Assembly: GCA_017530735.1 (NCBI GenBank)
Contig: JAFXMB010000158.1
Location: forward strand, 1 to 40,802
Source: Bacteroidaceae bacterium
Lineage (GTDB): Bacteria; Bacteroidota; Bacteroidia; Bacteroidales; Bacteroidaceae
Length of the DNA stretch: 40,802 nt
Direction of reading: 5' to 3'
Position 1 is the first letter of the stretch; the number at the start of each line of letters is the position of its first letter. Shown here one piece after another: positions 3,027 to 37,975 of this stretch. Below the pieces are notes generated by a model. The model was not told where the DNA came from. It saw only the letters and a program-made list of their open reading frames with translations, and ran no database searches. The position numbers were made by a program, and so were the translations under genes.

Positions 3027-6000
3027 TTACTTAAAACTGTCCCAACTCTTGATTGGAATATCGTTGATATCTACGGTGCAGAAGGCATTGATGAACGAAC
3101 TTGCCAAGCGAGCATTGGTTATCAGCGGGATGTTCAGGTCAATGGCGGCACGACGGATCTTGTATCCGTTTGTGAGCTCATGCTGGGTGAGATTCTTGGG
3201 AATGTTCACCACCATGTCAATCTGCTTGTTGTGCAGCATGTCAAGAGCCTGAGGCTGCTGTCCCTCCTCACTGGGCCAGTAAACGCGAGTGTTCTTTATG
3301 CCGTTATCCTCAAGGTACTTTGATGTACCGCCGGTAGCGTACAGGTTGAATCCGTTTGAAACCAGCATCTTGGCAGCATCCAGCATGGCGGCTTTCTGCT
3401 TTGCTGTACCGGTTGAGAGCAGAATGTTCTTCTTGGGGATGCGGTAGCCAACTGAGAGCATTGACTCCAGGATGGCGTAGCGCTGGTCATCACCAAGGCA
3501 GCCTACCTCACCGGTCGATGCCATATCGACGCCCAGTACAGGATCGGCCTTCTGCAGACGGTTGAATGAGAACTGTGAAGCCTTGATACCAACGTAGTCA
3601 ATATCGAACAGGCTCTTCTCAGGTGCCTCTACAGGTATGCCGAGCATGATCTTTGTTGCTATCTCAATCAGGTTGATCTTGAGCACCTTGCTTACGAACG
3701 GGAATGAACGTGAAGCACGCAGGTTACACTCAATTACCTTGATATCGTTCTCACGGGCCAGATACTGGATATTGAAAGGACCGTTTATATGAAGTTCCTT
3801 GGCAATCTGACGGCTGATGCGCTTGATACGCTTAACAGTCTCGACATAGAGCTTCTGGGGCGGGAACTGGATGGTAGCGTCACCTGAGTGTACGCCGGCA
3901 AACTCAATGTGCTCACTGATGGCGTAAGCAATGATTTCACCATCCTTGGCAACGGCATCCATCTCAACCTCCTTGGCGTTCTCGATAAAGCGGCTTACTA
4001 CTACAGGATGCTCCTTTGATACCTCGGCAGCCAGCTGCAGGAATCTCTCCAGCTCCTCCTGGTTGCTGCAAACGTTCATGGCAGCACCTGAGAGCACATA
4101 TGAGGGACGTACCAGTACAGGGAATCCAACCTTATCGATAAACTTGCCTATCTCCTTCATGGATGTAAGCTCGCTCCACTCAGGCTGGTCAACGCCGATG
4201 CGGTCAAGCATGGCTGAGAATTTCTCACGGTCCTCGGCGTTATCAATGTCCTTGGCGCTTGTACCCAGGATAGGCACGTTCATGGCGTCAAGTTTCATAG
4301 CCAGGTTGTTGGGGATCTGTCCGCCGGTTGATACAATCACACCGTAGGGATTCTCCAACTCAATTATATCCATAACGCGCTCAAATGTGAGCTCGTCAAA
4401 GAACAGACGGTCTGTAACGTCGTAGTCGGTACTTACTGTCTCAGGGTTGCAGTTGATAACGATGTTGCGGTAACCCTCCTTGCGGACGGTGTTCAGAGCC
4501 TGAACGCCGCACCAGTCAAACTCAACCGATGAACCGATACGGTATGCACCCGAGCCGATAACGATGATTGACTTCTTGTCATCAAAGAAAGGTATGTCAT
4601 GTGCGCATCCGTTATAAGTCATGTACAGGTAGTTCTCCTTGGCCTGATACTCACCGCCCATGGTATCTATCTGCTTTACGTAAGGTACGATACCCAGGCT
4701 CTTACGCTTGTTACGAACAGAGAGAAGACCGGCCTGTGAGCCCTGTTTCTTCTCCTCACCTATGGCACGTGCAATCTGGAAGTCCGAGAATCCTATCTTC
4801 TTGGCCTTGCGCAACAAATCTTCACTCAGAGCCTCAATGCCCTTAACCTTGTGCAACTGCTTTGAAACATCATGAATACCCTTCAGACGGTTCAGGAACC
4901 ACTTGTCAATCTTGGTAAGTTCATAGATGCGGTCAATGGTGTAACCCTCGCTGAATGCCTGGCTGATAGCGAACAGACGCTTATCGGTAGGCTCCTTGAG
5001 CGCCTTGTCCAGGTCATCGAACTTGATGCTTTTGTTCTCTACGAATCCGTGCATGCCCTGGCCAATCATACGGATACCCTTCTGGATAACCTCCTCAAAG
5101 CTGCGGCCTATTGACATTACCTCACCTACAGACTTCATTGATGAGCCTATCTCACGGTCCACGCCGTGGAACTTGCTCAAATCCCAACGCGGAATCTTGC
5201 ATACAACATAGTCAACTGACGGCTCAAAGAAATCGGTAGTATCCTTGGTGATAGAGTTCTTAAGTTCATAAAGGTTGTAACCCAGACCTATCTTACAGGC
5301 CACGAATGCCAGAGGATAACCCGTTGCCTTTGATGCCAGGGCCGATGAGCGGCTCAAGCGGGCGTTAACCTCGATAACGCGGTAATCCTCACTCTGCGGG
5401 TCAAATGCAAACTGAATGTTGCACTCACCTACTATACCCACGTGACGGGCTATACGGATAGTGAGTTCCTCCAGTTTCTGCACCTCATGGTGAGTAAGTG
5501 TCTGTGTAGGAGCAACCACGATACTCTCGCCGGTATGTATGCCCAGCGGGTCAAAGTTCTCCATTGAGCAGACTATGATTGAGTTGCCGCTGTTATCGTT
5601 CACGCACTCAAACTCTATCTCCTTCCAGCCCTTGAGACTCTTCTCAACCAGAATCTGGGGTGAGAATGAGAATGACTTCTCGGCCAGTTTGTTGAGTTCC
5701 TCCTCATTGTCGCAGAAACCCGAGCCCAGACCGCCCAGAGCGTAAGCCGAGCGGATGATAACCGGATATCCCAGTTCACGTGCAGCTGCGCGTGCATCGT
5801 CCATAGTCTCTACGGCATGGCTCTTTATGGTCTGTACGCCTATCTCATCCAGACGCTTTACAAACAGGTCACGGTCCTCGGTGTCCATGATAGCCTTAAC
5901 CTGAGTACCCAGCACCTTAATCTTATACTTGGCCAGAACGCCGTTCTGCTCAAGAGCCACACCGCAGTTCAGAGCGGTCTGACCGCCGAATGCAAGCAGA

Positions 6001-6254
6001 ATTGCATCGGGACGCTCCTTTGCAATAACCTTCTCTACAAAGAACGGAGTTACAGGATAGAAATAAACTCTGTCAGCAACACCCTCGCTGGTCTGTACAG
6101 TTGCAATATTGGGGTTGATGAGGATGGTCTCTATGCCCTCCTCCTTAAGTGCCTTGAGGGCCTGTGAACCTGAGTAATCGAATTCGCCGGCCTCACCTAT
6201 CTTGAGTGCGCCTGATCCCAGGAGCAGCACTTTCTTGTATTTCTTCAATGCCAT
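3027..6254 (-). CDS. carB: Carbamoyl-phosphate synthase large subunit, CPS I/CAD-like type
   Basis: Makes carbamoyl phosphate from bicarbonate, two ATP and ammonia for pyrimidine and arginine synthesis. The 1075 residues show the duplicated ATP-grasp layout: first half with EFDYSGSQA, SAYALGGLGSGF, VIEVNARLSRSSALASKATGYPLA; second half with GSGAYRIGSSVEFDWCGVQA, RPSYVLSGAAM and ECNLRASRSFPFVSKVL; then a C-terminal MGS-like effector domain from about residue 940. Many stretches (LGSGALKIGEAGEFDYSGSQA, VEKSLKGWKEIEFE, VCKIPRWDLSKFHG, IGSSMKSVGEVM) resemble the eukaryotic CPS I/CAD proteins more than E. coli CarB. The effector domain carries ATGGTS (973-978), WPSEEGQ (Trp993) and VNIPKN (Asn1017), recalling the N-acetylglutamate site of CPS I. 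It starts 12 nt after carA and is co-transcribed with it. Confidence 0.95.
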   Translation of the reverse strand: MALKKYKKVLLLGSGALKIGEAGEFDYSGSQALKALKEEGIETILINPNIATVQTSEGVADRVYFYPVTPFFVEKVIAKERPDAILLAFGGQTALNCGVALEQNGVLAKYKIKVLGTQVKAIMDTEDRDLFVKRLDEIGVQTIKSHAVETMDDARAAARELGYPVIIRSAYALGGLGSGFCDNEEELNKLAEKSFSFSPQILVEKSLKGWKEIEFECVNDNSGNSIIVCSMENFDPLGIHTGESIVVAPTQTLTHHEVQKLEELTIRIARHVGIVGECNIQFAFDPQSEDYRVIEVNARLSRSSALASKATGYPLAFVACKIGLGYNLYELKNSITKDTTDFFEPSVDYVVCKIPRWDLSKFHGVDREIGSSMKSVGEVMSIGRSFEEVIQKGIRMIGQGMHGFVENKSIKFDDLDKALKEPTDKRLFAISQAFSEGYTIDRIYELTKIDKWFLNRLKGIHDVSKQLHKVKGIEALSEDLLRKAKKIGFSDFQIARAIGEEKKQGSQAGLLSVRNKRKSLGIVPYVKQIDTMGGEYQAKENYLYMTYNGCAHDIPFFDDKKSIIVIGSGAYRIGSSVEFDWCGVQALNTVRKEGYRNIVINCNPETVSTDYDVTDRLFFDELTFERVMDIIELENPYGVIVSTGGQIPNNLAMKLDAMNVPILGTSAKDIDNAEDREKFSAMLDRIGVDQPEWSELTSMKEIGKFIDKVGFPVLVRPSYVLSGAAMNVCSNQEELERFLQLAAEVSKEHPVVVSRFIENAKEVEMDAVAKDGEIIAYAISEHIEFAGVHSGDATIQFPPQKLYVETVKRIKRISRQIAKELHINGPFNIQYLARENDIKVIECNLRASRSFPFVSKVLKINLIEIATKIMLGIPVEAPEKSLFDIDYVGIKASQFSFNRLQKADPVLGVDMASTGEVGCLGDDQRYAILESMLSVGYRIPKKNILLSTGTAKQKAAMLDAAKMLVSNGFNLYATGGTSKYLEDNGIKNTRVYWPSEEGQQPQALDMLHNKQIDMVVNIPKNLTQHELTNGYKIRRAAIDLNIPLITNARLASSFINAFCTVDINDIPIKSWDSFK

Positions 6255-6266
6255 AATATCAGGGTG

Positions 6267-7328
6267 TTAGAGTTTTGAAACAAAATCATCATAAATAAAC
6301 ATAGCATCAGTGTTTACCTGATCACTCTCTGAGTGGAACATAACGCCAACCCATGGCTTGCGTGTGTTGTAGATACCCTCAACAGAACCGTCGTTCAGGT
6401 TCTTGAGGTAAACCTTCCACTGACCTACAACTGAATCCTCACGGATTGCGTAGTTGTGGTTCTGTGTGGTAATATAGCAGCGGTCGGTGCCCACCAGCTG
6501 TACCGGCTGGTTCTGGGTGTGGTGACCGAACTTGAGCTTGTATGTATCCATACCGCCGGCAAGACCCATCAGCAGGCATCCCATGCCGATACCCAGTATC
6601 GGGGTATCATTTTTAGCCATGAACTTCTGCAGGGCTGTAACCACCTCACTGCAGTAGCTGGGGTTACCCGGGCCGTCCGATATCACCAGACCGTCCATCT
6701 TGATCTTTGAGTAGTTATAGTTCCAGGGAACGCGAACCACCTTGAGGTCCTCATTGATGAGGCAGCGTACCACGCCGGCCTTGACACCGCAGTCCACCAG
6801 AACCACAGTCTTGGAACCACCCTCATTGTATGTAACAGGCTCCTTGACCGATACCTCCGGGAGCAGATTTGTATATGCATACTCCTCAGGTTTCTGCTTG
6901 CCGTCAAACAGTATCTTGGCGGTCATGCTGCCGTGGTTACGGATGTGCTTGGTCAGCTCACGGGTATCAACGCCTTCAATGCCAACCACCTTCTCACGCT
7001 TCATCCATGAGTCAAGTGACTCCTTGGCGTTCCAGTGGCTGTAGAAATCGCTCTTGTCACTTACAATCAAGGCGCGTGCCTGTGCGTGCTCGCTCTCCGC
7101 ATTGGTGGGAAGCCCGTTCTCATCGGCACTCATGGGCTGGATGCCGTAGTTTCCTATCACCGGATAGGTCATAACAATGAGCTGTCCGCGCGATGCGGGC
7201 TCAGTCAGGATCTCAGGATAACCGGCCATTGCGGTATTGAATACAAGCTCGCCGCTTACGGGCTGATTGTATCCGAATGACTCACCCTTGAATGAGGTGC
7301 CGTCGGCCAAAACTAGTGATACTGTCAT
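6267..7328 (-). CDS. carA: Carbamoyl-phosphate synthase small subunit lacking the nucleophile Cys
   Basis: A 353-residue protein with the normal CarA layout: N-terminal small-subunit domain (LADGTSFKGESFG, FNTAMAGYPEILTEP, YPVIGNYG) and a class I glutamine amidotransferase domain (SDGPGNP at 217-223, YKLKFGH, TQNHNYAI, FHSES). In ordinary CarA the nucleophile sits in GICLGHQ; here the same place reads GIGMGCL (246-252), so the Cys position is Gly248. His332 and Glu334 of the triad remain. The codons GGT ATC GGC ATG GGA TGC are clear in the DNA, with no frameshift. By analogy with ureotelic CPS I, where Cys is Ser, this subunit should not hydrolyse glutamine and the enzyme may use free ammonia. 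Start ATG at 7328 follows a GGAGGAG purine tract. It forms an operon with carB. Confidence 0.93.
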   Translation of the reverse strand: MTVSLVLADGTSFKGESFGYNQPVSGELVFNTAMAGYPEILTEPASRGQLIVMTYPVIGNYGIQPMSADENGLPTNAESEHAQARALIVSDKSDFYSHWNAKESLDSWMKREKVVGIEGVDTRELTKHIRNHGSMTAKILFDGKQKPEEYAYTNLLPEVSVKEPVTYNEGGSKTVVLVDCGVKAGVVRCLINEDLKVVRVPWNYNYSKIKMDGLVISDGPGNPSYCSEVVTALQKFMAKNDTPILGIGMGCLLMGLAGGMDTYKLKFGHHTQNQPVQLVGTDRCYITTQNHNYAIREDSVVGQWKVYLKNLNDGSVEGIYNTRKPWVGVMFHSESDQVNTDAMFIYDDFVSKL

Positions 7329-7805: not shown

Positions 7806-8624
7806 CTACTTATTTCTAAATTCTTTTGTTGTGAATTTCCAATGTCTGTATGGCATTGCCCAATAATCATTTGGAATATTTATGGGAGTAGTTTTGCTTA
7901 TATCAAATATTTCAACTCCATTTGACTCTTGAATTCTTTTCAAGATGTGAAAGAACAATTGCTCTTTAGCTATTGTTCTGTTACCTCTTGAAGTCTTACC
8001 ATCAGGCACAATCATGTTCTTCTTGTTAAGCATAAATGAGATAGATCCAAGAACTATATCCATACATTGCTGAATGGAATGTTTACTGGAGTTTATTTCA
8101 ACTACATCATCTATCCTAATTTTAATTTTTGCTTTTCGAAATCGAGAATTTTGCTGCAATGATAATATATGAGATTTGAATGCATCGCGTTGATCTATGG
8201 GATATGGTATCTCATCAAAATATAGACGTAAGAATATCGGTTTATCTTGTGGAGCATCGTGATATGTCAAGCCAAAAGCATGCTTTACAAACTGATAATA
8301 CAATAGAGAATACCTGTTATGAATCTGTTCTGGATTTAGATTAGACGGCACCTGAGATGTTTCACGGAACATAATACGAACTTTCAACTTGTTCTCTCTA
8401 ATATATGTAAAGAACAGGTCTATCATTTGCTGGTATTTTTCCAGATAGTTTCCAGTAACCTTAACCCACTTAATTTCACCATGTAAGTTGAGTTCAAGTT
8501 TCTTAGCATTCAAGGCATCTTTTATATCATCATAATCTGTATTACGAACAAGGACTCCACCAAAGAAATCAGTATAAAAAATGCCATTGCTTACAGATTC
8601 GTCACAGTATATTATGTATTCCAT
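7806..8624 (-). CDS. DUF3800-type protein, putative RNase H-fold nuclease
   Basis: A 272-residue soluble protein with the DUF3800 pattern: an N-terminal strand ending in YCDES (Asp8, Glu9), a FGGVLV strand (21-26), a mid-domain LRLYFDEIP (Asp137, Glu138), and a late SSKHSIQQCMDIVLGS helix with Asp189. These spaced acidic residues suggest a metal-dependent RNase H-like active site; biochemical activity for the family is, to my knowledge, poorly established. It lies on the same strand as jetABCD, 171 nt after jetD, in equally AT-rich DNA, so it probably arrived with the Wadjet genes, either as an accessory component or as an independent defence gene. The 171-nt gap holds an inverted GATAA/TTATC pair (8704-8718) but no clear promoter. 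Confidence 0.72.
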   Translation of the reverse strand: MEYIIYCDESVSNGIFYTDFFGGVLVRNTDYDDIKDALNAKKLELNLHGEIKWVKVTGNYLEKYQQMIDLFFTYIRENKLKVRIMFRETSQVPSNLNPEQIHNRYSLLYYQFVKHAFGLTYHDAPQDKPIFLRLYFDEIPYPIDQRDAFKSHILSLQQNSRFRKAKIKIRIDDVVEINSSKHSIQQCMDIVLGSISFMLNKKNMIVPDGKTSRGNRTIAKEQLFFHILKRIQESNGVEIFDISKTTPINIPNDYWAMPYRHWKFTTKEFRNK

Positions 8625-8795: not shown

Positions 8796-9644
8796 CTATC
8801 CTATATACCCTTCCTGATCATAAGCACGATGGTATTTATTTATAAGGTCTATTAAGAACTGTATTTCATTGATTTCACAACAAAGATCTTGATACTTCCC
8901 ATATTGCTCGTTATAACGAGTTTTTGACCCAATTACCAATCGCTGCTCAACATCTGAAGGAATCAAATACGTCGATTTATTACCAAGATATTTATGGAAC
9001 TCTGTCAGAAAAATATGAATACCGGCCAAGTCAAAATCGCCAAAATGGACATATCGATTAGGAATCACTTGAAGCCATGAGCGTAGGTCTGTTGATTGAG
9101 GATAGCGAGATACAAAAAGGAATCTATATTTTCCTATTTCTGACTCAAACAACTTTCGTTGTTGACGGATCATTCGGAAATTCTCCATGTTCTCTATACC
9201 AACCACGATGACATCATCAGGAATAATAAACGATTTCCAGTCTGTAATAAAACAAAAACTACCCTCTTTAGGATGAACTACCAGTTCACCTCCATTCAAC
9301 TGACATACTATAGACTCATATGTATTCACTGGGAAACCAGGACAAGAGCGAACCTTGATTAGTTTTGAATTACCTGTTTTTGCTGCCTGTTCCGAACGAG
9401 TCTCATAAGAATCCTTATCTTTATCGCCAATTGTTCGCAACTCTTCATAGTTTGATTGCAAATAACATTTCAGTGCAACATTATCAATTGCCCTGAATGT
9501 CCTCCGACTACCATGCGTCTGCACCGTCAGCAATCCCTCTTTCTGCAGTATCTCTGCAAAATCCTTTCGCAGTGTACTGGCCGATACCGATGCGCCATCT
9601 ATAAGCTGATACAACGTTTTATTCAGTGTCTTTGAAATCTTCAT
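8796..9644 (-). CDS. jetD: Wadjet JetD-like protein with Toprim nuclease domain
   Basis: Predicted DNA-cleaving subunit of a Wadjet (JetABCD / MksBEFG) system. The 282 residues contain an N-terminal winged-helix-like region (SASTLRKDFAEILQKEGLLT) and a C-terminal Toprim-type core: VIVVGIENMENF with Glu151 and Glu154, a middle strand FLFVSRYPQ, and HFGDFDLAGI with Asp203 and Asp205. In studied Wadjet systems JetD cuts plasmid DNA after the SMC motor has extruded a loop. The protein is shorter than the roughly 400-residue JetD I know from type I systems, mostly in the N-terminal arm. Its ATG overlaps the jetC stop by 4 bases, so translation is coupled. Low sequence similarity outside the motifs keeps the subtype open. 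Confidence 0.82.
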   Translation of the reverse strand: MKISKTLNKTLYQLIDGASVSASTLRKDFAEILQKEGLLTVQTHGSRRTFRAIDNVALKCYLQSNYEELRTIGDKDKDSYETRSEQAAKTGNSKLIKVRSCPGFPVNTYESIVCQLNGGELVVHPKEGSFCFITDWKSFIIPDDVIVVGIENMENFRMIRQQRKLFESEIGKYRFLFVSRYPQSTDLRSWLQVIPNRYVHFGDFDLAGIHIFLTEFHKYLGNKSTYLIPSDVEQRLVIGSKTRYNEQYGKYQDLCCEINEIQFLIDLINKYHRAYDQEGYIG

Positions 9645-12600
9645 TTTGCATTAATTGTCATCAAACGCTTGATATGCGTCTGCGACTTGCCGTCCTTTGT
9701 CAGCAAATAGTTGTATTTATACAAATCAGCATTGTAGCCCATTGGTGAACTATTAATCAGGTAGATGTTTCGCACATTGGCAAATTGCAATATGCCACTT
9801 ACATTGCTAGGATGCAGTTTGCCTATTTCATCCATCATACAATGGATTATGAATCCGCCGTTCTTTCTTGAAGCCCTAGTCTTGAACACATTAATGAGCA
9901 ATATATTTACCATCGCCTTCACTAGGATGTCAGTACCATCAGATCCCACATTGTTAATGTGCTCGACCCAACCAGTATTATTGTCGTTCTCCTGAATGCG
10001 AAACTGTAGGCGAAAAGTGTCGCTAAGACTTAGTTCTGTACGAGCCGGTTCATTCTGCAACTGCTTCATAAACCTCTTCAGATAGTCAACCACCTTTTCA
10101 TTTACCCTATCTCGGTCTCCGCCTGAGAATAGGTTGAGTTCACCAATCGTCAGAGAATTTTCCTCTGTGAAATCACGGATTTGGCGTAGTAGTAGCATCA
10201 TCCTATCAGATGATTCTTCAACTCGGAGTTCAATACTACGGATAACTCCTGCAAAGTTGCGCTCTTGGAAGTCACGGTTCACCTCACTGATGATACTGCG
10301 AATCTCAGCGGAATGGTTCATCAACAAACCAACCTCTCGAGAAACACTACGTAAAATGGAATTGTAGTGGTCGCTGACGCGGGCACGATACATCTCAATC
10401 TTGTCATTCTCCACAAATTCTTTTAGGTTGAAGGCGAAGTTTAAATAGTCTTCATCGTATTGCGGTGTGATAAAGTGGAAGGTGTTGTTTGCGCCAAAGT
10501 GGGAATTAAACGAATTAGTTACACGCTTCAGTTCTTCCATCTTTTGTCGCTTTTTGTTGACAGAACCTCGCATCTGTACTACCAATTCTGTCAGTGCAGA
10601 CGTGGAGGAGGACGTCAGATTATCGTGTAGGAATGATTCTGGCAGTACGTTCTCTACTTGGCATAGCTGCTCATATTGTGTCAGACCATCCTTCATAGCA
10701 TTGACCATAGCCTGTTTAGAAGCAAGTAGTTCAGATTGCTCTTTTCGGTCTGCTTCATATCGTTTACGTTTATCTTCATACTGTTGGCGGGTGGTGCTGT
10801 CCTTCGTTTCCAACTGACGTTTCTCTTCTCGAAATTCGAATTCGTGAGAGAAGAGTTCTTCTTCATCCTTACGGAATTCGATCACAAAGTGTCGCTGCTG
10901 GTCAATCTTGTCGAGCACACCTTGTACTCTTTCGCAATCTTTCCGACAGAGGTCTATAGCGTGCGTGTCAGCGCCCTTGCCTTTCAGTTCGTCACGTTCC
11001 TGTCGTTCCAGCATATGTCTGCGTTCGTCAATATCTTTTTCCTTGACGGCTGTTTCTTCCGTTTGTCTCTGCCGGAAAGTGTCAAATTGTTTCTGGAGAT
11101 CGCGTATTGCGGCGTTATAATCACTATCTGCCGCCTTTAAGTCCTTGTCTCGCTTTGTACGCTGTTGTGTGCGGGCTGTTTTCTCCTCATCCAGTACCAG
11201 CAACGTTTCGTTATATACTTTTTTTCGCTTTTCACGTTCTGCGGCCACCATTTCCTTTTCTGCCTGTTCTGTCTGGCGTAAGCGTGTTTCTGCATCCCTT
11301 ATGTTTGTAGGTATCTGCTCCAACCGGACTTTCAGAATAGTCTCTTGTTGCCCTAATTCTGCAATCTTGCCTTTATAATTCTTGCGCAATGCTTCCTGCT
11401 CGTTTTCTGACTGAACTTGTAATTCTGTCATTTCTTTCTTTTTGGCAGCGATGGTCTCTTGCTGCTGTTTCTGCAGGCTGCGATATTCGTCAGGAGTGCG
11501 ATAATGTAGTGGAATTGCTTCTAAGTTGATGCTTACCCCAAATAGTTGGCTATTCTCCGTCAGTTGTGGCGACAAACCTTGTGCATAAAGCACCTGCTGT
11601 TCATCCACAACCTTTCCAATATTATTTTCCCATCCTGGTTTGTTTTGGCTTAACCACTCATAAAATGAACCTTTCCAACGAGTGAGTATTCCCTCCGTTT
11701 CGGACAGTTCTGCTTGTAACTTCTTTAACTGTCTTTGATTATCTTCCAGTTTGTGTTCATAGACCCGTTTTATTTCATTGCTCTCCATCTCCCATTCCTG
11801 CCGAAGGGATTTTAAGCTATTTGATATAATGGTCAATTGGCTTTTTAGTTGTTGTTCCTGGGCCTTGAGGTCTTGAATCTCCATCTCGTAGTCACGTGTC
11901 TCCTTAGCCATCGGATGCCAGTATTGTAACTCCGACAACCGTTTATCTGCCAAGTTATGATTCACTTGCAAAACAGCAAGGCGATCGTCCGATGATGCCA
12001 ACCATTCTCCATATGCATCCTCCACAGTTTTTTTACGTAGATCACGCACTTTCACACTTTTGTCGCGCTCGGTCTGTATTCCATCACGATAGCGTTGCAA
12101 TTCTTCCTTTTGAGTCAGTCCGAATTTACGCCACTCGTCATCAAGTGCAGCATAAAGTGCACGGTATTTCTCAGTCACATCCTTGTATTGCTCTTCTAAA
12201 GCACGAAGAATTTTTTCTTTTTGAGCCTTCTCGATTAGATATTTCTGTTCCTGAGCATTTAATTCAATAATGTCCTTAATACCGATTTCCTCATAATGCT
12301 TACGTTTTTTACGAATGTCGTCCAGTCGCTGTTCACGCTTGCTTATTTCTTTGGTCAAACGGTCATGCTCCTTCTCATACTCATGTTGTATGATACCAAT
12401 TTTATCTTTGAGCTTTCCAAGTTTCTCCTGTATTTCCCGAATCTCTTCTTCAACTAGTGGTAACTGTTCACGAGTACAAGTGACCACATGGTTCAACTGA
12501 TGCCAAGTCTGGGTCATATCATAGTCGAGAGCTATCAGCAAGCGGTAGTTATCCACTACCTTTGCCGCTTTGTTTCGTACAGGTATCTCGCCACTATTGT

Positions 12601-13294
12601 CTTTCCTATACCAACAGTCTATCTCGTCAAACTCCCGTTCAAAGTCAGCCACCAAATGACGATAGTCAGAAAGGCGGATACTGTCCTCCACCTCCGTCAT
12701 TGATTGTATTATGGTATTTTTCACAAAGTCAGCATCCAATTTACTATTTAAGAATACGTTTTGAATGCTTCGTGGTATATTCTGGTATTTTGAACTCTCT
12801 ACAATGGCATATTTGTCATAGCGATGGCTACGGTCGTGTGTATTTCCGAAAATTATGTTACGATATTGGTCGTAAGTCTCAATCTTTGCACTGATGTCAT
12901 TGCTTCCTATTCGTTCACGAATACGAATCCAATCGCTTTCCACACGCCCACTATCATCTACGAACCATGATTTCTGATAAGGCGCATCAATAAAGCGGAA
13001 AACAGCCTTTCCTTGACTGCGATAGGTTATAATAGAGTATGCACTATGTTCGGTCTTTACCTCATACACTATATAAGAGTTACTGTAACGGAAATAAAAC
13101 TCCTCGAACGACTTCTGCCCCTGTTGGATGCCCAATCGCATCTTGTCAGCATTGTAGAAGAATAGTAATGCTCTCAATACCGTACTCTTGCCAACACCTT
13201 GAGTGCCAGAAAAATGAACGTTACCGTCTAGCATCACCTCTGCGTATGGAATATTTGCAGAGTTCAGAAAAATGATTTTGTTCAAATGTCTCAT
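9641..13294 (-). CDS. jetC: Wadjet JetC-like SMC/MukB-type ATPase
   Basis: The SMC-like motor of the Wadjet system, expected to extrude DNA loops using ATP. The 1217 residues show the ABC/SMC layout: Walker A GTQGVGKST (30-38), long coiled-coil arms rich in E, K, R and Q on either side of a presumed hinge around 520-640, then a C-terminal head with NVGSDGTDILVKAM (near 1115-1128, an SxGT-type signature), Walker B FIIHCMMDE with Asp1155 and Glu1156, and a NIYLINSSP strand. It overlaps jetB by 4 bases and jetD by 4 bases. Order and overlaps support a four-protein complex that restricts plasmids. The N-terminal LNKIIFLNSANIPYAEVMLDGNVHFSG is the usual start of this ATPase family. Confidence 0.9.
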   Translation of the reverse strand: MRHLNKIIFLNSANIPYAEVMLDGNVHFSGTQGVGKSTVLRALLFFYNADKMRLGIQQGQKSFEEFYFRYSNSYIVYEVKTEHSAYSIITYRSQGKAVFRFIDAPYQKSWFVDDSGRVESDWIRIRERIGSNDISAKIETYDQYRNIIFGNTHDRSHRYDKYAIVESSKYQNIPRSIQNVFLNSKLDADFVKNTIIQSMTEVEDSIRLSDYRHLVADFEREFDEIDCWYRKDNSGEIPVRNKAAKVVDNYRLLIALDYDMTQTWHQLNHVVTCTREQLPLVEEEIREIQEKLGKLKDKIGIIQHEYEKEHDRLTKEISKREQRLDDIRKKRKHYEEIGIKDIIELNAQEQKYLIEKAQKEKILRALEEQYKDVTEKYRALYAALDDEWRKFGLTQKEELQRYRDGIQTERDKSVKVRDLRKKTVEDAYGEWLASSDDRLAVLQVNHNLADKRLSELQYWHPMAKETRDYEMEIQDLKAQEQQLKSQLTIISNSLKSLRQEWEMESNEIKRVYEHKLEDNQRQLKKLQAELSETEGILTRWKGSFYEWLSQNKPGWENNIGKVVDEQQVLYAQGLSPQLTENSQLFGVSINLEAIPLHYRTPDEYRSLQKQQQETIAAKKKEMTELQVQSENEQEALRKNYKGKIAELGQQETILKVRLEQIPTNIRDAETRLRQTEQAEKEMVAAEREKRKKVYNETLLVLDEEKTARTQQRTKRDKDLKAADSDYNAAIRDLQKQFDTFRQRQTEETAVKEKDIDERRHMLERQERDELKGKGADTHAIDLCRKDCERVQGVLDKIDQQRHFVIEFRKDEEELFSHEFEFREEKRQLETKDSTTRQQYEDKRKRYEADRKEQSELLASKQAMVNAMKDGLTQYEQLCQVENVLPESFLHDNLTSSSTSALTELVVQMRGSVNKKRQKMEELKRVTNSFNSHFGANNTFHFITPQYDEDYLNFAFNLKEFVENDKIEMYRARVSDHYNSILRSVSREVGLLMNHSAEIRSIISEVNRDFQERNFAGVIRSIELRVEESSDRMMLLLRQIRDFTEENSLTIGELNLFSGGDRDRVNEKVVDYLKRFMKQLQNEPARTELSLSDTFRLQFRIQENDNNTGWVEHINNVGSDGTDILVKAMVNILLINVFKTRASRKNGGFIIHCMMDEIGKLHPSNVSGILQFANVRNIYLINSSPMGYNADLYKYNYLLTKDGKSQTHIKRLMTINAK

Positions 13295-13845
13295 AGCTCT
13301 GGTATCTCCTCTTCGTTATAAATCGTTATCAGGTTCACCATTTCCTCTGCATAATGAAAAGCGGCAGTTACTTTGTAAGAATCATCCTCCTCGTTAATCA
13401 GTTCTGCAAATCCCATATTGGTCAATTCGCTAATGAGTTTTTCCACAATATCTTGATTGGTATTCTGCTTACGGAATAATTTACGAGCCTTGTCACGTAA
13501 TTCTACGTCAAGGTTTATGCGCTCCAGAATATGAGTTTTTCTAAACTGGAATCCTGTTGAGAACGTGATGTCGTATGTTTTCAGGAAGTCCAATATGTCC
13601 ACCCACTGTGCAAAACTCTGCAACTTTTGTTCTATGGTCTGTTTAGCCTCTTGGGTACGAGCAAAATAGTAGTAGCCGTCACCTGACTCCAATCTCAGAC
13701 CTAACTCAGAGAAATAAACCTCATAATCGGAATAATTCTCCTCTATATCATCAAAAAGGTGCTTCACTTCCTGATCTGTACTATCAACAGAAAGGAAACC
13801 GCCCTTGCTCATTCGTTCAAATATTTGTTGTGTATTAGCTCGCAT
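13291..13845 (-). CDS. jetB: Wadjet JetB-like KITE subunit (DUF4194-like)
   Basis: Small partner of the JetA kleisin-like protein and the JetC motor. The 184-residue protein has the pattern of MksE/JetB winged-helix proteins: FERMSKGGFLSVDSTDQEVKHLFDDIEENYSDYEVYF split around a SELGLRLESGDGYYYF segment, then a C-terminal winged-helix region ending in DSYKVTAAFHYAEEMVNLI. Its ATG lies inside the end of jetA (11-base overlap) and its end overlaps jetC. No catalytic residues are expected. Assignment rests on gene order, size and the GLRLxxxxGYYYF motif rather than strong similarity. Confidence 0.8.
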   Translation of the reverse strand: MRANTQQIFERMSKGGFLSVDSTDQEVKHLFDDIEENYSDYEVYFSELGLRLESGDGYYYFARTQEAKQTIEQKLQSFAQWVDILDFLKTYDITFSTGFQFRKTHILERINLDVELRDKARKLFRKQNTNQDIVEKLISELTNMGFAELINEEDDSYKVTAAFHYAEEMVNLITIYNEEEIPEL

Positions 13846-15118
13846 ATATCAGTGCATATTCTATGTTTTCAAATGTCTCGTAGTTGTCAGTAAAACGCAG
13901 TTCATCGCTGTGCATAGTTGCCATCTGACAATAGAGTATAATATGGTCATTAAGGGTTCGTGGCAGATGATAGTTATAGTTCCGGATAAACGAGAACAAA
14001 TGTTGCCCCTGTGCTTTGAAGGCATTCCATAGCTCTGTGGTATTAATGTTGTTAATTTCCTCGGTGCTTTCATTCAGGAACTCTTGGTCTAAAGGATCCG
14101 CCTCAGTTCTTGCCATTCGACGCACATCATTCTTTCCTACTATCTTCCTGATTAAAGCGTATGCCTCCTCACTACTTCGAAGCATATCGACTGAAAGAAA
14201 TATGCGATTGTAGGGACGTTTCTCCATCCATAATGGATTGTCATCAGTCAATGTGTGTACAATATTCGTGTCTTCACGCCAGGTCAACTGATCTTTCAGA
14301 TATTTCAACCTACGTATCTTCTTCAAGAGCAAACTCTGCTGCTCTATCTGGTTAATATATTCAATAATCTGATGTTCTATCTCAAGGAGGTTGTGATCGG
14401 CTTCCGTAAAGTCATTGCGCACGTCCATCGTCGTGCGTAGCATCTCTGGGTCGGTAGCCATCTTGAAGAATACTATCTCTCCATCCATCATTTTCTCGCA
14501 CTCTTCAATTAACTGCTTAATACCCTTTCGTTTCTCATCAAGATTCTCAAGTCTAGTCTTTTTAATCTTATAGTTAGGTTCCTGTTTGTAAGCAACGTCC
14601 ACATTGCGTTTCAGGTCGATAACATTCTTTAGGGTTCTTAGCCCAATACGACGAAGCATCTTTCGTACATTACTTTGGTATTGAGTCTTACGATGTTCAT
14701 TAGTTTCTTCAAGGTAATATCCAATATTTTCTTTTAAGGCATCAATGTGTTCCCTCACACTAGCTACGCTTATTTCCTCATTCATGTCAAGCACTTCCTC
14801 GAAGAACTGAACATAAACATCCTCCATCTCCAGAAAGTCACCATTCTCATGAATCACTCCATGATCTATCAGATACTGTACGCGTTCACGTTTGTAATCT
14901 ACAATCTCAAGGGCAAAGTCTGTGCGATAGGTCAATGATTTGCGCCGCTCAAACATATCGCGGAACAAGACCTTCTCCCTATCAAGCATCTTGACCAGTT
15001 CTTCTATTGTTCTAAAGTGAGATAATATCTCCATAAGCACGAGTACCTTTATGGCAAAGTTACTGATTCTATTTCTTCTACCACTTAGTAATAAGATATT
15101 TCTATAATGGGTAAACAA
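13835..15118 (-). CDS. jetA: Wadjet JetA-like kleisin subunit
   Basis: First gene of the defence operon, 427 residues as drawn. The N-terminal third is helical and winged-helix-like (KVLVLMEILSHFRTIEELV, EIVDYKRERVQYLIDHGVI); the middle is a charged helical region (residues 110-260), consistent with a kleisin bridging JetC heads. The visible start is TTG at 15118, two codons after an in-frame stop (15122-15124); the first in-frame ATG is at 15034 (residue 29). Type I JetA (DUF3375) proteins are, as I recall, nearer 480 residues, and an inverted-repeat element begins 16 nt upstream of the TTG. The N-terminus may therefore have been shortened by insertion. Subtype is not resolved. Confidence 0.72.
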   Translation of the reverse strand: MFTHYRNILLLSGRRNRISNFAIKVLVLMEILSHFRTIEELVKMLDREKVLFRDMFERRKSLTYRTDFALEIVDYKRERVQYLIDHGVIHENGDFLEMEDVYVQFFEEVLDMNEEISVASVREHIDALKENIGYYLEETNEHRKTQYQSNVRKMLRRIGLRTLKNVIDLKRNVDVAYKQEPNYKIKKTRLENLDEKRKGIKQLIEECEKMMDGEIVFFKMATDPEMLRTTMDVRNDFTEADHNLLEIEHQIIEYINQIEQQSLLLKKIRRLKYLKDQLTWREDTNIVHTLTDDNPLWMEKRPYNRIFLSVDMLRSSEEAYALIRKIVGKNDVRRMARTEADPLDQEFLNESTEEINNINTTELWNAFKAQGQHLFSFIRNYNYHLPRTLNDHIILYCQMATMHSDELRFTDNYETFENIEYALIYAS

Positions 15119-19941: not shown

Positions 19942-20300
19942 TTACCCAGAAGTTTGAGCAATTCTTCCCTTGTCAACTGACGGTATTTGTACTGAGGATC
20001 GGCATCAAAGTCCACCTCAAAATACTCCTCGTCGTAGAATGAGAGTTTGGAGTTGGTGTTGGGATTGCACTCTACATATACCACATCGGCCGGATTCAGA
20101 CCTTTGGCCTCACATATCTGGTCGGCCAGTTTCCTGCCGGCATATGTAACAGATGTACCGGGATTGTCCTGATAGAGTTCTGTAACAATAACGTACTTCT
20201 TGCCTTCAGATTCACGAATCTTCAGGCCGCATGATGAGGGCATATCCCATTCGCCCTTGAAATCAAATATCTCGTCGTAATAATCCGGTGATACTTTCAT
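19938..20300 (-). CDS. Small conserved-looking protein of unknown function
   Basis: A 120-residue, mostly acidic soluble protein without signal peptide or membrane helix. It contains alternating strand-like segments (KKYVIVTELYQDN, ADVVYVECNPN, EEYFEVDFD) and a charged C-terminal tail LTREELLKLLGK. I do not recognise the family. It overlaps the radical SAM gene stop and the hydrolase start by 4 bases each, so it is translated between them and is probably a partner of one of the two. Codon use looks like its neighbours. Confidence 0.7.
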   Translation of the reverse strand: MKVSPDYYDEIFDFKGEWDMPSSCGLKIRESEGKKYVIVTELYQDNPGTSVTYAGRKLADQICEAKGLNPADVVYVECNPNTNSKLSFYDEEYFEVDFDADPQYKYRQLTREELLKLLGK

Positions 20301-21592
20301 AGATTTACATTTCTTACACTTCTGTCTACATCACGACCGAATGACTTGTTGGCAAGTCGGCGGTCACGCGGGCGGTATGTGCCCTCTTCCATCTCACGCA
20401 GAGCCACGTTGCAGAACAGACGGAACATCTTCTGCTCCTGACTCTCACTGGCATAGAAACTCTTCCATGCGTAATCGTACAGTTCCTGCAGGCGCTCCGG
20501 ACTCATATGCTTGGGCTGGAACACCACCTGACCGGCGTTGTAATGGTTCCAGTCAAAGTCAAATATGCGGCCCTGACGAAGCAGGTCATCATATCCCTTG
20601 GTATGCGGGAACGGAGTCATGACGGTGAACTCGGCCAGATCCAGGTCAATCTCACCCAGGAAATCAATCAGACGCTTTATGTCATCCTCTGTCTGGTTGT
20701 CAAGTCCAAGCAGGATTGTACCCTCAACGCCTATGCCATAGTCATGATAACGCTTAACACGCTCCTTGATGTAGTCCGATGTGTCATAAACGGCCTGATA
20801 TACATACCAGGCGCCTGCCTTGGCGGCCAAATCCAGAACCTCGGGGTCATCCTCAATGGTATGGCTTATCCATTTCTTCTTGAGCGGAGCGATGGCGGTA
20901 AAGAGTTCCTTCTCCCACTCCTTGTTCTGGGCAAGTGAATTATCTACTATAAAGAGGCGGTTGTTGTCAATTGCAGCCATATCCTCCACTACCTTGTCAA
21001 TTGGACGCGGACGGAACTTACGGCCGCCCAGATATGATACGGCGCAGGGATAGCAGCTGAAACGGCATCCGCGGCTGGCATGGAACAGGTCAACCATCTG
21101 AACGCCTTTGTGGTTATATAGTTCACGCTTGTAGAGGTCACGGCGGCAAGGTCCTACAGACTCAATGGGCGGCATATTGCCCATGTAGTTGTATATCTTC
21201 TTCAGGTCACCGTTCACCCAGTCAATCATCATCTGCTCGGAACGGCCCTCGGCCTCACCCAGAAAGACGCTGTCCACATGATTTACCATCTCCTCGGCAT
21301 GAAGCATGGTGGAGATACCTCCCGCTGTAACCAGCTTGCCGCGCTTATGGTACTCATCGGCTATCTCCCAGCCGCGTTTTACCTGTGTACTCAGCATCAT
21401 GGACAGCGCAACGCCGTCACACTCCTCATCAAAATCAATAGGCTCAACATTCTCATCGGTAAATGACACTTCAACCCACTCAGGCAGGGTTGCGGCAAAG
21501 GCAACTGGGCCGTGAGGCGGAAGGTTGAATGTTGTCTGTCCCCTCAGTTTCTGCCATTTAGGATAAATGAGCTTAAGCTTGAAAGTATTCAT
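20297..21592 (-). CDS. Radical SAM protein with B12-binding-like N-terminal domain
   Basis: A 431-residue enzyme. The CX3CX2C cluster motif is SRGCRFSCYPCAVSYLGGR with Cys176, Cys180 and Cys183. The preceding region (GVALSMMLSTQVKRGW, LVTAGGISTMLHAEEM, DSVFLGEAEG, residues 60-116) has the strand pattern of cobalamin-binding domains of class B radical SAM enzymes, though no cobalamin-ligand His is evident. Downstream are VEGTILLGLDNQTEDDIKRLIDFL and the FTVMTPFPHTKGY segment typical of the TIM barrel. Such enzymes carry out methylation, cyclisation or ring changes on unactivated carbons. It sits in the operon 14 nt after the CrtI-like gene. Substrate is unknown; a modification of the polyene or its aryl head is an inference. 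Confidence 0.87.
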   Translation of the reverse strand: MNTFKLKLIYPKWQKLRGQTTFNLPPHGPVAFAATLPEWVEVSFTDENVEPIDFDEECDGVALSMMLSTQVKRGWEIADEYHKRGKLVTAGGISTMLHAEEMVNHVDSVFLGEAEGRSEQMMIDWVNGDLKKIYNYMGNMPPIESVGPCRRDLYKRELYNHKGVQMVDLFHASRGCRFSCYPCAVSYLGGRKFRPRPIDKVVEDMAAIDNNRLFIVDNSLAQNKEWEKELFTAIAPLKKKWISHTIEDDPEVLDLAAKAGAWYVYQAVYDTSDYIKERVKRYHDYGIGVEGTILLGLDNQTEDDIKRLIDFLGEIDLDLAEFTVMTPFPHTKGYDDLLRQGRIFDFDWNHYNAGQVVFQPKHMSPERLQELYDYAWKSFYASESQEQKMFRLFCNVALREMEEGTYRPRDRRLANKSFGRDVDRSVRNVNL

Positions 21593-21606
21593 TAGGTCCT
21601 TTTATA

Positions 21607-23097
21607 TTACTTGTTTGATAATTCTCCTTTAATACCGTCCAGAACGGATTCATCTGCAAATATAGTCTGAATGGTTTCAATTGCAGTCATCGGAACGCCA
21701 CCAATTCCATGCATATTTACATTTTGTCCCGTCATAAGCAGGTTTTTCACCTTGGTTCTGATTGGAATCAGTGATGTTGCAATATCAGTGCTGTCCTTGA
21801 ACAGGCCGTATGCGCCGGCTCTGCGCGTACCCATCCAGTCGCGGAACGTGAGCGGCGACGATGCAAAGATGTCATCGGCCGCCTCCCTGATTCCTGGATA
21901 GCGTTTCTCAACCAGATCCAGCACCCTCTCCGTACGCTCCTTCTTCCAGGCCTCATAAGCCTCTCCACGATGCCCTGTGCGGGTGTTTTCCCATTCCAGC
22001 ACCTCATCAAAGTCCATAAGGCAGTATGCCGTAAGATGTGACGCAAAGCCGTCCCTGCCCTCACCGAAGAAGCAGTTCACTCCGTGAGGCCATTCCTCAC
22101 TCTCATATTCCGCCATCTTCCAGGCGTTATCCGCGCTGTCCACAATGCTGACCGGATGTCCCGGGAAACGCACCTTACCGGGCTTGAGCCTGAGATATAC
22201 CTTAAAGGCCGATGCCGTATCGGGGATACTCTCAATACGTGCACGATAGCCCGATGTAAACGCCTTGCCCTCAATAAGCGGGAACAGCGATGCGGGATGG
22301 ATATCGGATATATACCAGTCACCGCGGTACTCACGACCGTTCTTATCTGTGACACAATCTACGTTAAGGTCCCGTACGCGGACCGATGTCACCTCACAGC
22401 GGGTTAACACACTGCCACCAGCAGCCTCTATGACGCTCTTTAGAGCATCGGCCAACTGACCGGAACCTCCCTCAAACCAGCAGGGGTTCTCCATGAACAA
22501 GGCCGATATCATTATGTGGATATATGACGGAGAGTGTCCGGGAATACCAGCATAAAGCGGATTGACCGATGCCAGCACGGCACGGAGTTCAGGATCACTG
22601 ATATACTTTGCTATGAATGCGTCGGCCGGCATGAAGAACTCATCCGAGTGGTCATTTACGCCGCTCATGCTCTCCAGATAGAAGAGTTTCTCCTCATGTG
22701 ATACGCGGAACACGGCATCCACGTAACGGCGTATGTTATCTTTCTGTTGGGGGAACTTACCTGTCAGATAGTCTATGAATGCTTCACGGCCGGCGGGAAG
22801 GTCATAAGTGCGTGCGCTGTCGGCGTATGTAACGCTCAGCATCATGTCGGACTGCCTAACCTTGAGCCTGTCCATAATGCCAAGATAGCGGCACAGGCTG
22901 TTCAGGATGCCACCCTGGTTGAAACCGCCTGCCACATGCATGCCGGTCTCAAAGGTCTCGCCGCCGCGTGCGAATGTCTGTAGTCCGCCGCCTATCGCAG
23001 CGTTCTTCTCAAGTACGGTAACCTTAACGCCGCGCCTTGCCAAAAGCGCTCCGCAGAACAATCCGCCCATTCCTGCACCAATAATCACCGCCTCCAT
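21607..23097 (-). CDS. CrtI-like FAD-dependent oxidoreductase
   Basis: A 496-residue flavoprotein of the phytoene-desaturase/RetSat-like family. The dinucleotide motif EAVIIGAGMGGLFCGALLARRG with the LEKNAAIGGG continuation lies at the N-terminus, and the C-terminal FAD signature is LMTGQNVNMHGIGGVPMTA. ATG at 23097 is chosen because it begins the Rossmann strand and lies 2 nt after the exporter stop; the frame stays open 31 codons further into that gene. In carotenoid pathways these enzymes desaturate or isomerise long polyenes, so action on the conjugated chain is a reasonable guess, but known aryl polyene assembly needs no desaturase since double bonds come from dehydration. Confidence 0.88.
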   Translation of the reverse strand: MEAVIIGAGMGGLFCGALLARRGVKVTVLEKNAAIGGGLQTFARGGETFETGMHVAGGFNQGGILNSLCRYLGIMDRLKVRQSDMMLSVTYADSARTYDLPAGREAFIDYLTGKFPQQKDNIRRYVDAVFRVSHEEKLFYLESMSGVNDHSDEFFMPADAFIAKYISDPELRAVLASVNPLYAGIPGHSPSYIHIMISALFMENPCWFEGGSGQLADALKSVIEAAGGSVLTRCEVTSVRVRDLNVDCVTDKNGREYRGDWYISDIHPASLFPLIEGKAFTSGYRARIESIPDTASAFKVYLRLKPGKVRFPGHPVSIVDSADNAWKMAEYESEEWPHGVNCFFGEGRDGFASHLTAYCLMDFDEVLEWENTRTGHRGEAYEAWKKERTERVLDLVEKRYPGIREAADDIFASSPLTFRDWMGTRRAGAYGLFKDSTDIATSLIPIRTKVKNLLMTGQNVNMHGIGGVPMTAIETIQTIFADESVLDGIKGELSNK

Positions 23098-23099
23098 AG

Positions 23100-26039: not shown

Positions 26040-26784
26040 GCCTCTTACCTTTAATCCGTCTTATCAATGCCGCCGGAACGGCGTACAGCAACGCTCCGAA
26101 GCAGAGAAATGTGTTGAGTAAGGTTATTCTGAAAAAGTCCTGGAACGGACGGAAATGCGATACACGCTCACCATCAGGGGCATACCACACGCGTACCGGC
26201 ACGCCTTGTACGGTCACTCCGTTCCATGCGGCAAACACCAGCAGTTCAAGTTCAGCCTCGTATTTGGATGTTATCAGGCGCATACCGTGCAGTGATTCAA
26301 GCGGATAGATGCGGAATCCTGACTGCGTGTCACTGAGTTTCTGAGCCGTCTGCAAGCGGAACCAGAAGTTTGAGAAACGGTTGGCAAACGTACTCTTGCG
26401 CGGCATGTTCTCACTCGTGAGGTTACGGCAGCCCACAATCAGACGGTCGGGATGCTCCTTTGAGGCTTTTATCATGTCCGGAATGTCCTCAGGGAAGTGC
26501 TGACCGTCAGAATCTATCGTAATGGCATGCGTAAAGCCGTTGTCTCCCGCATAGTAGAGTCCTGTCTTGAGTGCCTCACCCTTACCCATGTTATGCTCAT
26601 GGCTCAGGGTAACCACATCCAGTCCGCAGAGTACGGCCGATGTGTTATCAGTGCTGCCGTCATTGACCACAATCACGTCAGGACACACCTTGAGCGCACG
26701 CTCCACGACGTCGGCCACGGTGCCGCTGTTGTTGTATGTCGGTATTATGACACAGTATCTTAAGTATGTTTCACAAGGACTCAT
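26032..26784 (-). CDS. GT2 family glycosyltransferase, polyprenyl-phosphate type
   Basis: A 250-residue GT-A glycosyltransferase like dolichol-phosphate mannosyltransferase. Motifs are VIIPTYNNSGTVADVV, VVNDGSTDNTS, the metal-binding TIDSDGQHFPEDI and DTQSGFRIYPLES. A C-terminal hydrophobic stretch (ITLLNTFLCFGALLYAVPAALI) followed by basic residues anchors it to the inner membrane. It would transfer a sugar from a nucleotide donor to a lipid carrier or to the polyene itself. It overlaps the preceding dehydratase by 14 bases and the exporter by 8. Together with the EamA-like small transporter upstream it resembles an ArnC/ArnE-F style pair. Confidence 0.9.
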   Translation of the reverse strand: MSPCETYLRYCVIIPTYNNSGTVADVVERALKVCPDVIVVNDGSTDNTSAVLCGLDVVTLSHEHNMGKGEALKTGLYYAGDNGFTHAITIDSDGQHFPEDIPDMIKASKEHPDRLIVGCRNLTSENMPRKSTFANRFSNFWFRLQTAQKLSDTQSGFRIYPLESLHGMRLITSKYEAELELLVFAAWNGVTVQGVPVRVWYAPDGERVSHFRPFQDFFRITLLNTFLCFGALLYAVPAALIRRIKGKRHG

Positions 26785-27163
26785 CGGTAAGGAAAATTGA
26801 GAATTTCAGGAAAAGATCGGACAGGTTGTCCCTTCTGGACACCACGCCCTGAGCCTTAACACCTCCCTCCTCGGCAGTCACCGAAGTAAACAGGACCGAT
26901 ACACGGCTGTCTGCTACAGGAGACATCATGCTAATGAATTTTGCGTTCTTTATATTCTTGATAAACAACTGTTTACCCATCTCAACTGAAAGTAACTCCT
27001 GCAGCATCTGAAGTATGCATACACCAGGTGTTACAGGCTGTCCGGGGAAGTGTGCCTTATAAATAAGATGGTCAGGATTCAGTATAATGTTGAACCCTGA
27101 CTGTCCCTGAGGCAGACCCTCCATACGGGACTCTATCCTGAACAAATCACCATTCAGCCTCAT
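26771..27163 (-). CDS. FabZ-type hot-dog dehydratase (ApeI-like)
   Basis: A 130-residue single hot-dog protein. It has the FabZ active-site loop YKAHFPGQPVTPGVCILQML with the catalytic His, but the usual acidic residue about 14 places later is Gln (ILQML where FabZ has an E). It likely removes water from 3-hydroxyacyl-ACP during polyene extension, working with the second dehydratase at 32732-33154; in described APE systems two hot-dog proteins, ApeI and ApeP, share this step. Its ATG lies 17 bases inside the end of the LolA-like gene. Confidence 0.82.
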   Translation of the reverse strand: MRLNGDLFRIESRMEGLPQGQSGFNIILNPDHLIYKAHFPGQPVTPGVCILQMLQELLSVEMGKQLFIKNIKNAKFISMMSPVADSRVSVLFTSVTAEEGGVKAQGVVSRRDNLSDLFLKFSIFLTDESL

Positions 27164-27761
27164 AGTCTCCGTTAAGTCTCACATTGCTTATCAGTATCTC
27201 GGTGCTGCCTCCGCCCGCATCCTCCATCAGGAGCCGTCGGAGCAGCCTTGTATCTGGATCAAAACCAAGTTCAATCTGACCAAACATCTTCTTCATGTCA
27301 CGGCGCACGGGTATGAGCAGCGCCTTCCACTGGTCTCCCTCATCGGTCACGGTCACTCTGAAGGTGCGTCTGTCCTTGAGCATCTCACCGGACATACAGC
27401 CCAGTATCATGCTTGAGATACCCTTGAAAAGGCGTCCGGCCTCACCTTCAGCACTCTCCGTACCCATTATGATATTGTCACCGTCAACCTTGAGTTTCCA
27501 CGCAAAGGGCTCGGTGTAATCAAGACTGAACCTTGAAGGTTTGATATAGATCATGGTTCCGGATGATTTCTGGGGTTCGTCCATAAGCGGGATACGCCTT
27601 GTCTGGGCAATGTCACACTTCATGGAGGTGATGTTTGAGCTTGCCTTTACAATACTCTCAATCATCTCATCCTCAGTCTGTTGCATATTGACTGTTACAG
27701 CACTTACACCCAGTGCCAGCAGCAGTATCAGACCCGTGACTATGACAAATATCCTCTTCAT
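27147..27761 (-). CDS. LolA-like outer-membrane lipoprotein carrier
   Basis: A 205-residue exported protein starting at ATG 27761 (MKRIFVIVTGLILLLALGVSAV signal peptide), 1 nt after the EamA-like gene. The body is the LolA half-barrel pattern: ASSNITSMKCDIAQTRRIPL, SSGTMIYIKPSRFSLDYTEP, KLKVDGDNIIM and MFGQIELGFDP. LolA proteins bind acyl chains and ferry lipoproteins through the periplasm; the copies in aryl polyene loci are taken to carry the lipid-linked polyene from the inner to the outer membrane. Some upstream in-frame codons exist (to 27785) but run into the preceding gene. Confidence 0.85.
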   Translation of the reverse strand: MKRIFVIVTGLILLLALGVSAVTVNMQQTEDEMIESIVKASSNITSMKCDIAQTRRIPLMDEPQKSSGTMIYIKPSRFSLDYTEPFAWKLKVDGDNIIMGTESAEGEAGRLFKGISSMILGCMSGEMLKDRRTFRVTVTDEGDQWKALLIPVRRDMKKMFGQIELGFDPDTRLLRRLLMEDAGGGSTEILISNVRLNGDYEAEW

Positions 27762-27762
27762 A

Positions 27763-30573: not shown

Positions 30574-30577
30574 AATA

Positions 30578-31168: not shown

Positions 31169-31170
31169 AC

Positions 31171-32717: not shown

Positions 32718-32731
32718 ATCAATCCTAAATA

Positions 32732-34282: not shown

Positions 34283-34300
34283 ATGTTATTACTTGTTTGA

Positions 34301-36621: not shown

Positions 36622-36637
36622 CAGAAATATTCTGTTA

Positions 36638-37180: not shown

Positions 37181-37205
37181 ATAATCTGTTTTGAACTATT
37201 GAAAA

Positions 37206-37934: not shown

Positions 37935-37975
37935 ACTAGTATGATTTATTATACTATCATAGATATATTAACTTG

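Follow-up and report, generated by a model that had tools for sequence, protein, structure and literature searches.

A carAB pair with a cysteine-less small subunit

The window, that is the whole stretch of DNA analyzed here (40,802 nucleotides), belongs to a genome of Candidatus Colenecus, a Bacteroidaceae genus given as the former GTDB UBA1179 in PMC8957277. Two complete genes on its reverse strand, carA and carB, encode the small and large subunits of a carbamoyl-phosphate synthetase (CPS):

6267–7328, minus strand: carA, CPS small subunit without the Cys, 353 amino acids; open frame, matching TIGR01368 (374 bits, cut-off 307) and the Pfam families CPSase_sm_chain (PF00988) and GATase (PF00117)
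6585–6587, minus strand: codon 248, GGC (Gly), at the E. coli Cys269 position (codon reading and alignment to E. coli CarA)
6576–6578, minus strand: codon 251, TGC (Cys), at the E. coli His272 position, probably not a relocated nucleophile; other Cys-less copies carry Cys, Ser or Asn here
6327–6335, minus strand: His332-Ser333-Glu334, with the triad His and Glu kept and Pro354 replaced by Ser (alignment and residue table)
3027–6254, minus strand: carB, CPS large subunit, 1,075 amino acids, complete, 12 bases past carA (profile matches; dN/dS 0.037)

At the nucleophile elbow of the window CarA, where a Cys is expected, the sequence reads GIGMGCL. In an alignment to E. coli CarA that is gapless from just before the nucleophile site to the C-terminal end, Gly248 takes the place of Cys269, His332 that of His353 and Glu334 that of Glu355 (positions were counted by hand on the alignments, as were all E. 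coli positions in CarA and CarB). Codon 248 is GGC in the window gene versus TGC or TGT in the seven intact copies compared. A review describes Cys269 and His353 as essential to glutamine hydrolysis. The preliminary description had reported the lost nucleophile, a Cys three residues later and the kept His and Glu, and the alignment bears it out on each of these points. It had also called the reading frame and the neighboring motifs intact, which is right for the open 353-residue frame but not for the motifs: in E. coli numbering, Gln273 is replaced by Leu, Pro354 by Ser, Gly313 by Asn (a residue that 8 of 100 CarA with the Cys also have) and Ser47 by Ala. Ser47 and Gln273 are positions that we take to be glutamine contacts. 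The protein has the domain make-up of TIGR01368, a small-subunit N-terminal domain followed by a class I GATase domain, and lacks the catalytic Cys269 of that family; this suggests that Cys-less carA genes are misnamed by the automatic label ‘glutamine-hydrolyzing’.

Several other features surround the pair. A DUF3800 gene (7806–8624, minus strand), whose product also matches the PADLOC model PDC-M04A (58 bits), has a DUF3800-VIII RNA (RF03075; 7724–7790, plus strand; 52 bits, cut-off 40.2) just past its 3′ end on the opposite strand. Between carA and a GH43 gene lies a condensin-type operon (8796–15118) encoding MksE, DUF3584, DUF7281 and one protein without a Pfam match, none of the four matching PADLOC models. 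The operon is missing at the same spot in two relatives (L193, L189), and the spot looks prone to insertions. From about 20000 to 38000, an FlxJ-family methyltransferase and an FlxB reductase above their cut-offs, together with ketosynthase and acyltransferase homologs, make up a predicted pigment cluster of the flexirubin or aryl-polyene type.

Loss of the cysteine across related genomes

In a sample of 37 Colenecus genomes, the window’s included, 34 carried a CarA of the window type and 20 carried another type, while neither type was found in one 62% complete genome (G003). The nucleophile codon was readable in 33 of the 34 window-type copies, the remaining one (G012) being cut by a contig end ahead of the site, and encoded Cys in none of them. 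Sequencing or assembly error and chance, the former named in the preliminary description as a possible refutation, were thereby ruled out as the source of the loss. Among the 32 distinct window-type sequences, the nucleophile position is occupied by Gly (28), Asp (2) or Glu (2), and Cys269, Gln273 or Pro354 occurs in none. Leu at 273 and Ser at 354 are present in all of them and Ala at 47 in 26, as are, in all 32, the counterparts of His353 and Glu355. Conversely, 100 Cys-containing CarA all had Cys269, Ser47, His353, Pro354 and Glu355, and 99 had Gln273. This residue table holds sequences as fetched rather than a random sample, with identical rows and CarA pieces shorter than 300 amino acids left out.

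A second Bacteroidaceae genus, g233, also lacks the Cys in all seven of its matching CarA. Four are separate proteins with Gly at the nucleophile and His353 replaced by Ala (4/4), and three are fused with CarB in one chain, with Gly at the nucleophile and His353 replaced by Asn (3/3); the fused chain is 1,450 amino acids long, the third copy being cut at 1,342. Aligning Bacteroidales CarA at this column, as the preliminary description had proposed, thus placed the loss in the Colenecus and g233 groups. Outside these groups, the Cys is kept in 100 of 101 distinct CarA, and it is present in all 60 genomes of a Bacteroidota sample from outside Bacteroidales. The one exception is an Omnitrophota (UBA2593) CarA beside carB (L127, 4782–5847), with Ser at the nucleophile and both His and Glu lost, which appears to be a separate event seen on this one contig.

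Gene architecture varied elsewhere, too. Fused CarA-CarB chains of about 1,450–1,650 amino acids with an intact Cys occur in other Bacteroidales (L040, L096, L101–L103). In four Bacteroidaceae contigs CarB looks split: CarA shares one frame with part of CarB in L161 (5809–8737) and L171 (5820–8700), giving 960–976 amino acids, and in L164 and L168 the frame for CarB next to CarA covers just about 565 amino acids.

Cys251, three residues on from the vacant position, could be a relocated nucleophile in an enzyme that still uses glutamine, and it is invariant in Colenecus together with His332 and Glu334. Such a relocation has hardly any chance of being correct, however, as the Cys251 position carries Ser in two of the three fused and Asn in one of the four separate Cys-less copies of g233, Cys occurs at the same position in an intact CarA (L047) and the glutamine-site Gln273 has become Leu in every distinct Colenecus sequence.

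Evolutionary constraint and origin of the Cys-less pair

Median dN/dS for the Cys-less pair was 0.084 for CarA and 0.037 for CarB (28 pairs among eight genomes), compared with 0.043 for CarA and 0.039 for CarB in the intact pair, from 10 pairs each. The Cys-less carA is under purifying selection. Within the Cys-less clade, CarA has drifted faster than CarB (for example, 62% versus 85% identity), whereas CarA and CarB nearly keep pace in the Cys-containing pairs compared.

In a quick CarB tree, the partners of Cys-less CarA formed one clade (SH-aLRT 99) within the main CarB of the family, and the intact second copies of both genera formed another, distant clade (support 100); the two Cys-less groups of g233 did not form a group of their own. 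The window pair thus appears to be the Bacteroidaceae family’s own main carAB, and a horizontal origin was ruled out, the intact copy being the more distant one. A quick CarA tree also joined the three Cys-less groups (support 94), with a long-branch warning, and because of this warning we base a single origin of the loss on the CarB tree. A single loss of the glutaminase is probable, in an ancestor that Colenecus shares with the related genus and that also had a second, glutamine-dependent carAB. Most simply, the old main pair of this two-pair ancestor would have lost its glutaminase, and descendants would later have dropped one pair or the other.

Copy number and downstream genes

A second carAB with an intact Cys, which the preliminary description had suggested looking for, was found on another contig of the window’s own genome (83% complete). 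By similarity, such an intact-type copy is present in 20 Colenecus genomes, and the Cys was confirmed in all six in which it was read. Among the eight Colenecus genomes that are at least 90% complete, all carried the Cys-less pair, three carried the intact type as well (G006, G021, G029) and five carried the Cys-less pair alone: G017 (100% complete), G030 (98%), G001 (97%), G027 (96%) and G031 (90%; its contig is the same as L072). In the genus g233, G474 (92% complete) likewise had a single CarA and a single CarB, which together are the Cys-less pair. The reverse pattern, only the intact type, was seen in two Colenecus genomes at 80–81% completeness (G014, G018) and in one g233 genome (G454, 91%). 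All of these are metagenome-assembled genomes (MAGs), in which the absence of a second copy may reflect a gap in the assembly, though five Colenecus MAGs at 90–100% completeness agree.

The copy numbers and substitution rates bear on whether the Cys-less pair might be a paralog in decay or with a regulatory role, the intact pair doing all the work. The intact pair in the window’s genome, the roughly twofold higher dN/dS of the Cys-less CarA relative to the intact one and the two Colenecus genomes showing the intact type only would all be in line with this. Yet the dN/dS of the Cys-less CarA is far below 1, its matches contain no inner stop and several near-complete genomes revealed no pair besides the Cys-less one, so that we hold decay or a purely regulatory role to be very unlikely.

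Six single-copy genomes each contain two carbamoyltransferase-fold genes, one high-scoring and one lower, which we take as pyrB and an ornithine-type gene. Full-strength argininosuccinate synthase was present in five of the six, with no argG found at full strength in G027. Carbamate kinase was rejected as another source of carbamoyl phosphate, as none scored above the cut-off in any of 14 genomes searched, the six single-copy ones included. Weak matches of 20–25 bits occurred in 11 of the 14; they are probably argB and in eight genomes lie no more than a few kilobases from the ornithine-type carbamoyltransferase. Unless an intact copy has escaped all six assemblies, the Cys-less enzyme has to be the source of carbamoyl phosphate in the single-copy genomes; ammonia is the most plausible donor, since the nucleophile is gone and the glutamine site is changed.

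A PurF-like gene upstream of carA

In several Bacteroidaceae, carA follows a gene whose product, about 627 amino acids long, is a divergent PurF-like protein (115–139 bits, cut-off 350):

L142, 7212–9095: PurF-like gene, upstream of carA
L187, 10280–12157: PurF-like gene, upstream of carA
Others: PurF-like genes, likewise upstream of carA

In L142, a glmS-like gene lies ahead of it. Among nine aligned sequences, the PurF-type start contains an invariant Cys8, presumably the class II nucleophile. In five Colenecus genomes (G031, a genus-mate of the window’s genome, and G030, G034, G027 and G001), the gene adjoins the start of the Cys-less carA, its stop codon overlapping by one base. With CarA itself dead, another glutaminase, most likely this directly upstream-encoded protein, could thus supply ammonia in a coupled way. 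We consider this unlikely, however, as the gene was not found in seven of 14 genomes searched (the window’s own, 83% complete, as well as G017, G006, G010, G029, G021 and G007), its retention differing between Colenecus species, and G017 showed neither a PurF-like gene nor a second carAB. The gene is also not specific to the Cys-less form, as it precedes ordinary Cys-containing carA in L142 and L138.

Changes in the large subunit

We compared CarB at window residues 229, 248 and 310, which we take to be the E. coli ammonia-gate residues 232, 251 and 314 (positions counted from the alignment); they are unchanged in every group. Elsewhere, Colenecus CarB departs from otherwise conserved residues at 12 positions, nine of them within residues 1–400 and three within three residues of the gate. 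With conserved positions as the background, the post hoc P values are 0.048 (residues 1–400) and 0.009 (gate). The fused group (13 positions) gave post hoc values of 0.0008 for the N-terminal half and 0.08 for the gate, and the separate g233 group (seven positions) 0.18 and 0.026, again post hoc. In two control clades (eight and three such positions), the gate was free of changes and the N-terminal half showed no significant excess. Position 250, two residues off the gate, is altered in all three Cys-less groups. These modest, post hoc signals hint at a retuning of CarB in its N-terminal half and on the gate side.

In CarA, the E. coli Gly293 position is occupied by Gln (20), His (11) or Met (1) in the 32 Colenecus sequences. 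A Gln at this position blocks the ammonia tunnel in CPS I; in the Colenecus sequences it is not diagnostic of such a block, His and Gln also occurring there in 71 and 5, respectively, of the 100 Cys-containing CarA.

Host sites of the carriers

According to record titles, relatives of the window’s genome come from ruminants (rumen, reticulum and omasum, with some from buffalo cecum and yak rectum) and from horse feces, which agrees with the ammonium-rich gut or rumen habitat proposed in the preliminary description. A host site could be set against copy number in 30 of the 37 Colenecus genomes; G000 (the window’s genome), G003, G009, G014, G018, G022 and G023 were left out for having no named site or no Cys-less copy. 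We took RUG, reindeer and red-deer records to be rumen and assigned some other sites from the sample names. Two-copy genomes came from the foregut in 16 cases and from the hindgut in none, and genomes with the Cys-less pair only came from the hindgut in 12 cases and from the foregut in two. Put differently, all 12 hindgut genomes had the Cys-less pair only and 16 of 18 foregut genomes had both. When relatedness was taken into account (29 rows), three independent contrasts remained, each pointing the same way (P = 0.25), and the link between host site and copy number is only a lead.

A putative ammonia-dependent enzyme

Together, these findings point to a working CPS that uses ammonia instead of glutamine and keeps its dead glutaminase as a scaffold, a reading of the window pair to which we assign a probability of about 0.77. 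CarB would make carboxyphosphate, take NH3 from solution to form carbamate and phosphorylate the latter. CarA, having no nucleophile and an altered glutamine site, would be incapable of glutamine hydrolysis and may be retained as a structural, perhaps regulatory partner of CarB, similar to the inactive glutaminase-like domain of human CPS I. The silent glutaminase, the CPS I parallel and the use of free ammonia had all been put forward in the preliminary description. The clade-fixed loss, the altered glutamine-site residues and the genomes in which this was the only CPS found support the silent glutaminase; the use of ammonia is what we infer from them, and in some relatives the PurF-like neighbor could in principle supply it. 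One observation speaks against a dead site: the invariance of His332 and Glu334 in Colenecus would be needless there.

E. coli CPS with its nucleophile Cys replaced reportedly keeps ammonia-dependent activity. The unmodified E. coli enzyme is described as requiring very high, ‘likely physiologically irrelevant’ concentrations if it is to use ammonia (PMC6245113), and CarB of the window pair would for this reason have to handle ammonia better. On a broader reading, which we put at slightly better than even odds, bacteria have evolved their own CPS I, one that is obligately ammonia-dependent, keeps its dead glutaminase as a scaffold and has retuned the CarB half that accepts ammonia. This enzyme would be the sole source of carbamoyl phosphate in some hindgut species, several of which show the ammonia enzyme only, and many rumen relatives would run the ammonia and the glutamine enzyme side by side. 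If true, arginine and pyrimidine synthesis of some hindgut species would depend directly on free ammonia, and nitrogen use in the rumen and the horse gut may be tied to it.

Comparison with known systems

The window pair shares both subunits, their domains and the CarB ammonia-gate residues with the bacterial glutamine-dependent CarAB (E. coli; TIGR01368). It differs in having lost the nucleophile and glutamine-site residues, although the family model still names it glutamine-hydrolyzing. A 2018 review presents glutamine as the physiological nitrogen donor and generalizes this to all bacterial CPS (PMC6245113); the Colenecus/g233 clade is a likely exception. In the open-access literature searched on the subject and on the genus name, we recognized no report of a bacterial CarA without its Cys. 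Table 1 of PMC3376133 gives no carAB without a glutaminase in 600 genomes, judged by gene arrangement and not by residues. The same paper covers NadE, a single-domain, ammonia-dependent NAD synthetase, as a case of a bacterial amidotransferase family whose ammonia-only forms work in vivo (PMC3376133); there the glutaminase is absent, whereas in the window CarA it is kept but apparently dead. Free ammonia has also been suggested as a substrate under glutamine shortage for the ordinary carAB of Blochmannia vafer, a symbiont of ants, the enzyme being described as preferring glutamine (PMC3017870); unlike in the window pair, nucleophile loss is not described in the passages concerned.

The closest parallel is vertebrate CPS I. 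In the PDB, both subunits matched human CPS1 (5dot) best (287 and 1,184 bits), a ranking that is no sign of special kinship, as ordinary Bacteroidota CarA may match alike. As in the window CarA, the glutaminase domain of CPS1 is kept, its nucleophile is lost and the Gln273 position is also Leu (GISTGNL). In animals, CPS1 coexists with the glutamine-dependent CAD, much as two carAB pairs coexist here. CPS1 is a fused single chain that resides in mitochondria and is activated by N-acetylglutamate, and its glutaminase-like domain is inactive owing to a Ser in place of the Cys (PMC4655335). The window CarA, in contrast, has Gly at this position and its pair consists of two separate subunits, a Cys-less fusion with the same domain order as CPS I being found only in three g233 genomes. 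We accordingly class the find with bacterial CarAB, as a variant that would work in the manner of CPS I without belonging to it. The enzymes form a natural series within one family, with the Cys, without it but with the His kept, and without both, as separate or fused chains, alone or beside an intact copy, and therefore offer bacterial material in which to test how vertebrate CPS I switched from glutamine to ammonia.
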